A DNA stretch of 64,000 bases from Clostridia bacterium (lineage in GTDB: Bacteria > Bacillota > DTU025), in the NCBI GenBank assembly GCA_034926675.1, contig JAYFQW010000070.1:1-64000 (forward strand), given 5' to 3'. This document shows, piece by piece, positions 30,740-54,917 of this stretch. How positions within the stretch are numbered: the stretch's first letter is position 1; each line of letters begins with the position of its first letter. The notes under the pieces were generated by a model. It was not told the DNA's origin. It made no database searches and saw nothing but the letters and a program-made list of their open reading frames with translations. A program made the translations under genes and the position numbers.

Positions 30740-31153
30740 GTGAAGGCTGAGATCAGGAATGTTGATGGCCTTACGATGATGGGGAGAGCCGACAGCAACC
30801 ACTGGGTGGTCATGGACGCCAGTGAAGATCACAATGGCGCAGGGGCTGGCGCAACTCCGATGGAGTTTGTCCTGATGGCGCTCGGAGGGTGCCTTGCCAT
30901 GACAGTCAAGTCACTGCTCAGCAAGAAGAGGCTCGACGTCGGACAGATGACCGTGGAACTCGACGCACAGACCGCGGGTGAGAATCCGCATGTGTTCACA
31001 AGCGTGGATGTGCTGCTCCGCTTTCGCGGCGGGCAACTCACTGGCGACGATGTGGCTTGGGCAGTGGATCTTGCACGCAAGAAGTACTGCCCGGTAGACG
31101 CCATGATCGAGCGGACTGCCCAGGTGAACTGCTCTTGGGATGTGGAGGTCTAG
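30740..31153 (+). CDS. OsmC-family protein
   Basis: The GTG start follows GGGAGG. The 137-residue protein has the OsmC pattern: ATPMEFVLMALGGCLAMTVKSLL with the first redox Cys, and LARKKYCPVDAMI with the second. OsmC/Ohr proteins are thiol-dependent peroxidases. Both cysteines are present, so activity is plausible. As the last gene of the sigma-54 operon it may protect against reactive sulfur or peroxide species linked to cysteine breakdown, which is inference. Confidence 0.88.
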   Translation: MKAEIRNVDGLTMMGRADSNHWVVMDASEDHNGAGAGATPMEFVLMALGGCLAMTVKSLLSKKRLDVGQMTVELDAQTAGENPHVFTSVDVLLRFRGGQLTGDDVAWAVDLARKKYCPVDAMIERTAQVNCSWDVEV

Positions 31154-31165
31154 CAGGGTCAACCA

Positions 31166-32040
31166 GTGGCCCGCGACGGGCACAACGCACGTAGCTGGAC
31201 ATAAAGGAAAGGGCGGCGCGGTGGCGCCGCCCTTCGCCTTGTTCCTGTGGTTGTTCGGGCGAGCGGTCGCGGGCGGCGGGGCAGGATTCTCATTTTTGAG
31301 CGAAAGAGCGGGTGGAGATTCTCATCCGTGAGGATTTTCCGGCGGCTTGCGCTCAAAAATGGGAAACTCCGCCTGGCCCGAGGGCGCGCGCGATCGGGAT
31401 GCCATTGAGGCGCGACTGAATGCAGCCATGGATCGCCAGCGCAAGGATGCCCGCGGCGGGCACAACGCGCGTAGCTGGGCGTAAAGGAAAGGCGGCACGG
31501 CGGCGCCGCCTACCTCGTATGGTCTCGTGGTTGTCCGGGCGAGCGGTCGCGGGCGGCGAGGCAGGATTCTCATTTTTGAGCGAAAGGACAGGTGGAGATT
31601 CTCATCCGTGAGGATTTTCCGGCGGTTCGCGCTCAAAAATGGGAAACTCCGCCTCGCCCGAGGGCGCGCGCGATCGGGATGCCATCGAGGCAGGACTGAA
31701 TGCAGCCATGGATCGCCAGTGCAAGGATGCCCGCGGCGGGCACGACGCGCGTAGCTGGGCGTAAAGGAAAGGGCGGCGCGGTGGCGCCGCCTACCTCGTA
31801 TGGTCTCGTGGTTGTCCGGGCGAGCGGTCGCGGGCGGCGGGGCAGGATTCTCATTTTTGGGTGAAACGGCGGGTGCAGATTCTCATTCGTGAGGATTTTC
31901 CGGCGGTTCGCGCTCAAAAATGGGAAACTCCGCCTCGCCCGAGGGCGCGCGCGATCGGGATGCCATTGAGGCGCGACTGAATGCAGCCATGGATCGCCAG
32001 TGCAAGGATGCCTGCGGCGGGCACGACGCGCGTAGCTGGA
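31166..32040. repeat. 280-bp tandem repeat array, 3 full units plus a partial
   Basis: The landmark GTAGCTGG recurs at 31191, 31471, 31751 and 32032, giving units of 280, 280 and 281 bases that are nearly identical. Each unit contains a GGCGGCGC...GCGCCGCC hairpin. It also contains a larger inverted repeat in which CATTTTTGAGCG pairs with CGCTCAAAAATG about 75 bases away, enclosing a small ATTCTCA/TGAGGAT stem. The open frames crossing it are translations of the repeat and lack ribosome binding sites. It separates the OsmC gene from the argG promoter. An inverted copy lies at 50808-51049. Confidence 0.9.
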
Positions 32041-32192
32041 TGTGGAGGATACCCTTCGAGGATCGCGGGAATCAACGACGCAAGGTGCGCATTGGCGGCC
32101 GCAAATCGGAGTATGGGGCCCCATCCGGCAGTTAGGGTCACGGATGCGACGGAAATCTCCACGCTGCGTCTGATAGCTATCTGTAAGACCAT

Positions 32193-32222
32193 TTGCATAA
32201 ACATGCACAGTCAAAGTATAAT
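32193..32222 (+). promoter_or_regulatory. argG promoter with ARG-box-like palindrome
   Basis: TTGCAT (32193-32198) and TATAAT (32217-32222) are 18 bases apart. TGCAT-AAAC-ATGCA at 32194-32207 overlaps the -35 box and resembles half of an ArgR target (TGAAT-N4-ATTCA type). ArgR or AhrC with arginine would block this promoter. Confidence 0.6.
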
Positions 32223-32261
32223 CATTGATATTGCCCCAGATGATCTGAGGAGGCTATTCAT

Positions 32262-33524
32262 ATGTTGTCTTCCGCTGGCAAAGTCAAGAAAGTGGTGCTG
32301 GCCTATTCTGGAGGATTGGATACATCGGTAGCTATCAAGTGGTTGCAGGAAAGCTACGGAGCTGAAGTTTTGGCGCTGGCCGTGGATGTTGGAGCCAAGA
32401 AGGACTTGGATGTGATACAGAAGAAGGCATTGGCTGTAGGAGCAGTCAAATCCCTCGTGGCCGATGCTCGGAAGTCCTTTGTGCTGGACTATGTATACCC
32501 GTGCTTGAAGGCAAACGCCATGTACGAAGGGAAGTACCCCCTGACTGCCGCGATTTCCCGCCCTCTGATCTCCAAACTTCTCGTGGAGATGGCTCATCAG
32601 GAGTGCGCCGACGCTGTCGCCCATGGGTGCACTGGCAAGGGCAATGACCAGGTCAGGTTCGACGTGTCGATCCAGGCGCTCGATCCGTCGCTCGCCATCA
32701 TTGCGCCGGTGCGCGAGTGGCCTATGTCGCGCGAGAAGGAGATCGAGTACGCAGAGGCCAACAACATCCCGGTTCCAGTCACAGTGAAGAGCCCCTACAG
32801 TGTGGACGAGAATCTCTGGGGACGCAGTGCAGAGTGCGGCGTTCTCGAAGACCCGTGGGTTGAACCGCCGGCCGACGCATACGCCATGACCACCGATCCC
32901 AGCCAGGCGCCTGATGAGCCCGAATACCTGGACATCGATTTCGAACATGGCGTTCCCGTGCGCATAGATGGCGAGGCCATGGACCCGGTGGACATGATCG
33001 AGGCTCTGAACGTCACTGCAGGCAGGCATGGCGTTGGCCGCCTTGACATGGTCGAGAACCGGCTGGTTGGGATAAAGTCGAGAGAGATCTACGAAGCGCC
33101 TGCGGCCACAGTGCTGATCGCGGCGCACCAGGATCTCGAGACCCTCACCATGCCCAGGGAGACACTCCACTTCAAGAAACTCGTCGAGCAGAAATACTCG
33201 GAGGTTGTGTATTTCGGCCTATGGTATTCGCCGCTCCGCGATTCGCTGGATGCTTTCATTGATAGCACACAGAAATCCGTCAGCGGGACTGTCAAGGTGA
33301 AGCTATACAGGGGAACATGTACTGTGGTCGGGCGCCGCTCTCCTCATTCCTTATATGATTATTCATTGGCCACCTACGACAAGGGCGACCGATTCGACCA
33401 TTCCGCAGCGGTAGGATTCATCAATGTCTGGGGTCTCCCCACGAAGGTGGCACGCCAGGCCGAGAGAAGAACGGCCTCGGGGACGTGCACTACGAACAAC
33501 GGCGTCGGGGGGAGCGCCGAATGA
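32262..33524 (+). CDS. argG: Argininosuccinate synthase
   Basis: The ATG follows GAGGAGG. The enzyme joins citrulline and aspartate with ATP in arginine synthesis. The ATP-binding P-loop [15 protein letters not shown] is at about residues 10-24. Further hallmarks are [29 protein letters not shown] and [19 protein letters not shown]. At 420 residues it is slightly longer than usual, with a short tail ending in a Gly/Asn-rich stretch. Its stop overlaps the argH start as ATGA, so the two are translationally coupled. Confidence 0.97.
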
Positions 33525-50724: not shown

Positions 50725-50772
50725 GAGCACCACCGCATTGGAGCACCACCGCATTGGAGCACCACCGCGCCA
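50725..50772. repeat. 16-bp tandem repeat, three copies
   Basis: GAGCACCACCGCATTG is repeated at 50725, 50741 and 50757 (the last copy diverges at its end). It abuts the metQ remnant. Confidence 0.85.
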
Positions 50773-50807: not shown

Positions 50808-51049
50808 TTCTTGCACTGGCGATCCACTGACGGCATTCAGTCGCGCCTCGATGGTGCGCGCCCTGGGGCCGAGCGGAGTTTCCCATTTTTGAGCGCGAGC
50901 CGCCGGAAAATCCTCACGGATGAGAATCTACACCCGCCGTTCCACTCAAAAATGAGAATCCCGGCGCCGCCGCAAGCGACTGCTAGCCCGTACAAGCACA
51001 AGAGCAAAGGCGGTGGGCGGCGCCGCCGCGCCGCCAGTCCTTTATCTCA
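50808..51049 (-). repeat. Inverted, diverged copy of the 280-bp repeat
   Basis: The sequence from CTTGCACTGGCGATCC to the GGCGGCGCCGCC block is the reverse complement of the 31-32 kb unit, with substitutions and small deletions. It keeps the CATTTTTGAGCG arm, the ATCCTCACGGATGAGAAT inner stem and the CTCAAAAATGAG arm. It ends where the homology to livM begins. Confidence 0.85.
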
Positions 51050-51360
51050 AGTACATCGACCCGTTCATGGTCTTCCCCATGGCAATATCCATGAAGATCG
51101 TGCTCCTCACGGTACTCGGCGGTCTGGGTTCACTATGGGGTCCAGTGCTCGGGGCGGCAATCCTCATCCCTCTCTCCGAGTATACTCGTATCGTCTTCGG
51201 CGGGACTGGGCGCGGTGTGGATCTGATCATCTTCGGCGCGCTCATCGCAATCGTGGCGTGTTTCCAGCCGCAGGGCATAATCGGCCTGATCAAGCTGGTA
51301 TCGCGGAAGACCGACGCGGCCAGGGGAGGTGCAAGCCCTGATGGGAGAGTCTCTGCTTGA
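51049..51360 (+). pseudogene. livM: 5'-truncated livM permease
   Basis: The frame gives only the last third of a LivM permease: KYIDPFMVFPMAISMKIVLL, VLGGLGSLWGPVLGAAILIP and ACFQPQGIIGLI. The front is replaced by the inverted 280-bp repeat copy. The open frame continues upstream to 51013 through repeat sequence. Its end overlaps livG. Without the other membrane helices it cannot transport. Confidence 0.8.
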
Positions 51361-54802: not shown

Positions 54803-54890
54803 TCATCTACATCGACCCGTTCATGGTATTCCCAACGACAATATCCATGAAGATCGTGCTCCTCACGGTCCTCGGTGGGTTGGGCTCCAT
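54802..54890 (+). pseudogene. Second livM fragment
   Basis: The frame reads FIYIDPFMVFPTTISMKIVL then LTVLGGLGS and is closely similar in DNA to 51049-51135 for about 80 bases, then diverges. It starts inside the peptidase terminator and ends in another hairpin. It is a scrap of a duplicated livM. Confidence 0.75.
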
Positions 54891-54917
54891 CCGCGGGCGG
54901 ATCCCGCGGGTGGAGCC
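54883..54917. terminator. 15-bp hairpin between convergent genes
   Basis: Arms 54883-54897 and 54903-54917 pair with a single G-T position around a CGGAT loop, 36 bases before the end of the convergent ABC ATPase gene. Confidence 0.65.

Follow-up and report, generated by a model that had tools for sequence, protein, structure and literature searches.

A dispersed repeat in a Clostridia genome, probably a mosaic element carrying palindromes three helical turns apart

Dispersed repeats in bacteria are usually defined by conserved sequence. Chromosomal parS consists of dispersed palindromic sites for a dimeric protein, and the sequence of these sites is conserved between bacteria. Insertion elements of the IS66 family have characteristic ends and an 8-bp target duplication. 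REPINs occur with tandem arrays (PMC3116915). Regulators of the Lrp type use two- or three-turn spacing, with wrapping of the DNA (PMC2995911). Hence, such geometry suits cooperative binding. Here, we describe a 280-bp repeat from a Clostridia bacterium. On balance, and with modest confidence, we favour a mosaic repeat of the BIME/MITE type that is dispersed between genes, does not code for protein, and has expanded in tandem at the locus studied, with a unit that carries an operator-like array of sites.

The window array and its unit

The window is the whole stretch of DNA analysed, 64,000 nucleotides in length. The initial annotation placed three near-identical 280-bp units, and a part unit, in tandem. 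This was confirmed by Tandem Repeats Finder (31169-32039; period 280, 3.1 copies, 92% matches, score 1490) and by unit matches. The array is flanked by an OsmC-like gene (30740-31153) and argG (32262-33524). To the left, the OsmC-like gene is accompanied by genes for a DctM TRAP transporter, a DHDPS-family protein, and a PCC-domain protein. Note that the anchor sequence both starts and ends the array. The features are listed below, together with those of a second copy of the repeat in the window.

31169-32039, plus strand: tandem array, three 280/281-bp units and a 30-bp part unit (anchor only)
31169-31448, plus strand: unit 1, 90% identical to unit 2
31449-31728, plus strand: unit 2, the query for repeat searches
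31729-32009, plus strand: unit 3, 95% identical to unit 2
32010-32039, plus strand: part unit (30 bases), terminal anchor copy
31179-31199, plus strand: anchor 1 (GGCACAACGCACGTAGCTGGA)
31459-31479, 31739-31759 and 32020-32040, plus strand: further anchors
31208-31235, minus strand: GC hairpin of unit 1, terminator-like
31490-31511, minus strand: GC hairpin of unit 2, terminator-like, covariation at family level
31772-31791, minus strand: GC hairpin of unit 3, terminator-like, covariation at family level
31287-31365, no strand: palindrome triple A-B-C of unit 1, middle box B at 31319-31340
31567-31645, no strand: palindrome triple of unit 2, box B at 31599-31620
31848-31926, no strand: palindrome triple of unit 3, box B at 31880-31901, right arm at 31911-31926, left limit placed as in the two other units
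50810-51047, minus strand: the other window copy, a single unit lacking the anchor, abutting the LivM fragment
51043-51357, plus strand: LivM C-terminal fragment, 105 aa; a homologue in G008 (another family) is 67% identical, in a 353-aa open frame

On the plus strand of the window array, each unit comprises the anchor, a GC hairpin, three imperfect palindromes, and a variable stretch. The anchor sequence is GGCACAACGCGCGTAGCTGG, given for the plus strand of the window array as GGCACAACGCGYGTAGCTGG. The palindromes have the form CTCA-N4-TGAG and are CTCATTTTTGAG (A), CTCATCCGTGAG (B), and CTCAAAAATGRG (C). A long stem with the arms CATTTTTGAGCG and CGCTCAAAAATG was initially ascribed to every unit; the arms are found in units 1 and 2, but the left arm of unit 3 reads TTTTTGGGTG. 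The GC hairpin was borne out in all three units. Thus, a terminator scan of positions 30900-32300 found one per unit (3 compared to 0.9 ± 0.9 in shuffled sequences), each on the minus strand. Because these hairpins are terminator-like on that strand only, the transcript of the left operon would not end there.

The spacing of the palindromes is nearly constant. Among 29 cores of this genome (G000), the A to B distance is 32 bp in 23 and 31 bp in 6, where distances of 30-43 bp were considered. The B to C distance is 31 bp in all 28 cores with a recognised C (range considered 18-41 bp). This corresponds to approximately three turns of the helix; successive sites thus share one face of the helix. 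The same spacing emerges from a scan that makes no use of the motif (distances 20-60 bp). Setting the arms to 5 and the gap to 4 yields 40 pairs at 31/32 bp in the array loci of this genome, with a mean background of 1.2 pairs per two distance bins. Three other arm and gap settings, incompatible with CTCA-N4-TGAG, yielded 0, 2, and 0 pairs in the same loci. No 31/32-bp pairs were found in 400 kb of array-free DNA from this genome, with either arms 5/gap 4 or arms 6/gap 6. In control DNA, the latter setting detects one pair in 281 kb of G001 and one in 408 kb of G008; the former detects two in each, equivalent to background. On a larger scale, 17 of 18 core-to-core distances in this genome, obtained with looser matching, are 271-284 bp. 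The remaining distance, at divergent locus L048, is 228 bp.

The initial annotation proposed a genome-wide search with one 280-bp unit, and this shows that the repeat is dispersed. Across the 3.38 Mb and 90 contigs of its own genome, a single unit is matched 53 times; by our own grouping, these matches fall in some 23 places on 18 contigs. We estimate 40-50 units in total (35 anchors, 38 middle boxes, 53 unit matches), and array size varies from a partial unit to over four units. Array ends occur at several unit phases and, in these fragmented genomes, many arrays lie at contig ends. For instance, contigs C87 and C33 have common sequence at their ends and, by eye, resemble two halves of one array.

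Relatives in sister genera

When 41 genomes were searched with the unit, weak matches outside its own genome occurred only in a sister genus (G003), at unit positions 11-67. These positions are the anchor and hairpin. A pattern for the anchor was found in 7 of 101 genomes; we take G000, G003, and possibly G008 to be real. Single hits in G005, G029, G074, and G078 were judged from their context to be chance, and five exact matches in named genomes are presumed to be chance also. In G008, two anchor-like motif copies, with other inverted repeats, surround one open frame (L145:1300-3300). By eye, the frame resembles a helix-turn-helix domain joined to a PD-(D/E)XK nuclease.

The palindromes of the sister genera belong to other classes: GACCC..GGGTC, CTCCTC..GAGGAG, and ATCCAC..GTGGAT. 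In G003, all three of these GACC, CTCC, and ATCC classes, in one genome, stand beside the common anchor and hairpin. A pattern search of 12 genomes detected GACC pairs in four (G002, G003, G004, and G007) and none in G000, G001, G005, or G006; the reversed-pattern control gave none in any of the 12. With gaps of 14-18 allowed, all 39 pairs have a gap of 15 or 16. A stricter GACCC pair occurs in 3 of 299 genomes, all of one family. The same pair pattern is absent from the viral contigs. A phage origin was rejected: one viral contig (L161), which is AT-rich, has a lone box-B match without anchor or further boxes.

The spacing recurs with the new palindromes. For adjacent GACC pairs in the fetched loci, counted at 31 and 32 bp only, 51 of 67 are 32 bp apart and 16 are 31 bp apart. 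An unconstrained scan of G003 recovers 27 pairs at 32 bp and no more than two at any other distance. The loci read in G002, G003, G004, and G007 are likewise tandem; their triples recur every 206-245 bp or so, with GTAGCTGG or TAGCTGG in between. We conclude that the three-turn spacing of the palindromes is kept while their sequence differs between elements and genera. A further palindrome class possibly exists in G001, where two CTGCGG/CCGCAG-type palindromes lie 32 bp apart beside a sequence gap (L206:401-450); a strict pattern did not confirm it.

Where gene context was scored, at 45 sites in three genomes using home-made gene calls (15 of the sites are in this genome), 19 arrays lie between tandem genes, 11 between convergent genes, and 8 between divergent genes. 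Five are at contig edges, and two fall within open frames that enter or cross the repeat. The arrays are therefore intergenic, without preference for promoters. We also searched for a partner protein. Beside 57 sites, no recurrent DNA-binding gene was found among the 25 largest frame clusters, from which 8 proteins were compared with Pfam. Once frames through the repeat are set aside, the leading clusters comprise ABC-transporter ATPases, with 13 frames at 9 sites, and, at 4 sites, LysM/peptidoglycan-binding proteins. The neighbours of CTCC and ATCC arrays were inspected by eye only.

The arrays might instead be functional sites of the host, of the parS or Lrp type, with a nucleoid, segregation, or architectural role and a dedicated protein. 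Dispersal would then be selected and mobility incidental. We think this unlikely. Together, GACC loci in four genomes, and the CTCA class in G000, place the geometry in five genomes of four genera, despite replacement of the recognition sequence. Dyads per genome are also numerous in two cases: compared to the reversed control, there are 62 against 7 in G003 and 50 against 7 in G004 (5 against 9 in G000 and 3 against 5 in G001). Furthermore, work on Lrp-type regulators describes how they bind imperfect sites that are clustered at intervals of two or three helical turns (PMC2995911). Conversely, sister genomes are very uneven, as the lack of GACC pairs from G000, G001, G005, and G006 indicates. 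In addition, as described below, copies adjoin broken genes and several G003 copies have IS66-like ends.

Mobility, coding capacity and RNA structure

Seven palindrome-bearing elements of G003 are bounded on each side by ends that resemble GTGAGCGTCAAA..TTTGACGCTCAC. Of the 11 listed end pairs, one is flanked by identical 8-bp sequences (agccccgc) and two by sequences that match at 7 of 8 positions, where about 0.004 matches are expected by chance with equal base frequencies. One of the 7/8 matches belongs to a 75-bp element without palindromes. Two such 75-bp mini-elements, with IS66-like ends, are present in G003 (L126:5109-5183 and L119:9287-9361); the first has an internal hairpin, by eye, and is nested in another element, with flanks matching at 7 of 8 positions. 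In total, single end-like hits number 47 in the G003 DNA retrieved, compared to approximately 28 expected. We refer to these ends as IS66-like because G000 has an IS66-family element with the ends GTAAGCGTCAAATAGC (C42:66576-69260, L171) and further end copies near contig ends. The copy at C42 appears intact but lacks matching 8-bp flanks; its right flank, GTTTGGCC, is the left flank of the C62 copy. No IS66 transposase was found in G003. The IS66-bearing stretches L171-L179 contain no palindrome boxes and no palindrome pair at 31/32 bp.

In 216 kb of array loci from this genome, no end pairs were found 60-700 bp apart, and single hits number 8 compared to approximately 16 expected. A target-site duplication, which the initial annotation had suggested looking for, is seen once as an exact 8-bp repeat in G003, but not at the window array. 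Its proposal of a non-autonomous mobile element fares similarly. Some 23 genomic places, relatives in sister genera, and IS66-like ends in G003 are in its favour, but no such ends were found around copies of the family to which the window array belongs.

We also count in favour of mobility that copies adjoin broken genes. The second window copy abuts the LivM fragment listed above, and another array adjoins part of a reverse transcriptase, by eye of the group II intron type, which covers positions 69-154 of the 205 in the RVT_1 profile. A second LivM-like stretch, at window positions 54808-54903 within a 61-aa frame, matches residues 4-35 of the 51043 fragment with 81% identity. The genes for transport of branched-chain amino acids look rearranged here. 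Adjoining the second array copy, at 50725-50768, is a 16-bp repeat with 2.8 perfect copies. Elsewhere, by eye, a sequence ending in GGGTGCTGAAYATGG is joined to the repeat at differing points (L033 near 2448, L040 near 2690, and L147 near 9937). The sequence resembles one end of an insertion element that had inserted into the palindromes. Loci L037 and L042 have a common left flank, and the right end of L037 recurs in L046; by eye, these flanks point to a segmental duplication or a larger mobile unit.

It is improbable that the repeat is a REP/BIME proper. On that reading, the GC hairpin would be a REP with the GTAG tag, formerly mobilised by a RAYT transposase, and the DNA between REPs would be the palindrome triple. 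On the minus strand, GTAG precedes the hairpin in 16 of 20 aligned G000 copies, but in only 4 of 13 from G003, and not in the single copy from G004. GTAG-tagged REPs form a described superfamily (PMC3733652), BIMEs are tandem modules, and inter-REP DNA can bind IHF (PMC2817692). Even so, the REP model has no place for a palindrome triple. The Y1 transposase family PF01797 has no match in carriers G000 (97% complete), G003, G004, or G007 (72% complete), and the one match in carrier G002, which would favour a REP origin, is partial. Conversely, G001 has 10 matches and G005 has 5, and no elements of these classes were found in either genome. (G008 has two matches and G006 none.) We have not accepted RAYT/REPIN membership because PF01797 has no match in this genome, and only a partial one in G002.

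A protein-coding repeat was rejected. In the window, each unit has stops in five of six frames, with one minus-strand frame open. Of 18 core-to-core distances in this genome, 9 are not divisible by three, among them the two from the window. The 193-aa minus-strand frame through the window array has no Pfam match. The initial view of an array with no coding function is thus upheld.

It is very unlikely that a structured non-coding RNA is transcribed from each unit. The core of unit 2 folds at -43.2 kcal/mol on the plus strand, with a z-score of -5.0 relative to shuffled sequences (-1.3 on the minus strand). Furthermore, in all 27 copies from this genome, which are of common ancestry, the plus strand gives the better fold of the palindrome core. 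However, the GACC sister class has no strand bias; the plus strand is better in 14 of 24 runs with an unambiguous anchor, where one row with an invalid energy was counted as not plus-biased. At gathering scores, no Rfam family is present in the window, and no sigma-70-like promoter was found in 30900-32300.

Covariation further separates the parts of the unit. For the long A-C stem, in the class of this genome, there is one double-change pair compared to 0.7 expected. Its covariation score was equalled by only 16 of 500 shuffles, but sliding the partner by two columns scores as high (0.128 against 0.125). The signal is at most weak. Across 111 palindromes of the GACC class, to which this test applies, no variable half-site position has a significant excess of matching halves over the shuffled pool. 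At the palindrome centre, the halves match less than when shuffled (33 compared to 44.8 ± 4.3). Since the halves vary independently, they are better explained as half-sites in double-stranded DNA than as RNA stems. Neighbouring GACC sites have no general pairing covariation, and one nearly invariant position gives 62 compared to 60.2 ± 0.6 in shuffled sequences. Matches on the same strand exceed shuffling more (for example, 48 compared to 38.7 ± 3.3), as expected from common descent. The GC hairpin behaves otherwise. In 34 copies, from three genera, 14 double-change cells were counted compared to 3.6 ± 1.5, and none of 500 shuffles was as high. Note that 8 of 42 anchor rows were left out before counting: three from G004 (no GC hairpin), L033 (cut end), L049 (hairpin lost), and L036:4335, L038, and L044 (extra bases before the hairpin). 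We conclude that the GC hairpin is kept through compensatory changes and is the sole part with clear covariation. Hence, of the structured RNA and covariance analysis raised initially, the short hairpin stands, while the long stem does not do so clearly and the GACC palindromes act as DNA half-sites. For the palindromes, independent GACC halves and the long-stem result leave a structured RNA unsupported.

Passive satellite DNA, generated by tandem duplication and ectopic recombination only, would fit array ends at several unit phases and the many arrays at contig ends, but is scarcely credible because the palindrome phase and anchor are conserved between genera and the intervening DNA is not.

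A model for the repeat and comparison with known systems

For the mosaic repeat with an operator-like site array, which we prefer, the following model can be proposed. A dimeric, sequence-specific protein would bind the dyads side by side to form a compact nucleoprotein complex. The putative complex may act by repression, as a roadblock, by looping, or by local packing of the nucleoid. On the minus strand, the hairpin would stop antisense transcription. Arrays could grow and shrink by unequal recombination between direct copies of the anchor, and copies would spread by transposition, using an IS66-type transposase in at least one sister genus. Because array ends occur at several unit phases, precise transposition alone is insufficient. 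We count against the model that the plus-strand folding preference, in 27 of 27 copies, is more than a purely double-stranded role would require.

A broader proposal, which we regard as rather doubtful, is that the dispersed triple-dyad arrays belong to a family-wide chromosomal system, together with a DNA-binding protein (or several paralogues) that diversifies and co-evolves with them. The geometry would be fixed at three helical turns and the recognition sequence repeatedly replaced. By analogy, this would be like eukaryotic centromeric satellites and their binding proteins.

In the titles and abstract openings of the open-access literature, we found no description of a constant three-turn phase with replaced palindrome sequence. 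What distinguishes this repeat is that its geometry, palindromes every three helix turns with one anchor and one hairpin, outlasts the palindrome sequence, even within one genome. Consequently, it offers several natural sets of sites for asking whether a protein family shifts its DNA specificity along with a repeat.

Of the systems described, BIMEs and REPs of E. coli, and REPINs of Pseudomonas, come closest: they combine a GC hairpin with inter-hairpin DNA, as a dispersed intergenic mosaic with tandem modules and hybrid arrays (PMC2817692, PMC3116915). They differ in four respects. This genome has no match to a RAYT-type transposase; units in the arrays read are head to tail, with no paired or alternating palindrome orientation; there are some 40-50 units rather than hundreds; and each unit has three phased dyads, with sequence replaced between elements. 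MITEs are likewise short and non-coding and, in G003, the likeness extends to terminal inverted repeats with an 8-bp target duplication. However, no such ends surround the arrays of this genome, and the element in the window is a tandem array. As for an autonomous partner, G000 has the IS66 element with GTAAGCGTCAAATAGC ends, whereas G003 has no IS66 transposase match. Operator clusters of Lrp/AsnC regulators also consist of imperfect palindromes two or three helical turns apart, cooperatively bound (PMC2995911); here, the spacing is 31/32 bp. Those clusters are control regions of particular genes, whereas the 45 sites here have no gene-orientation preference. Like parS, the sites are palindromic and dispersed but, unlike parS, their sequence changes while the spacing stays. 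The repeat described here would link the BIME/MITE type to a defined nucleoprotein structure.
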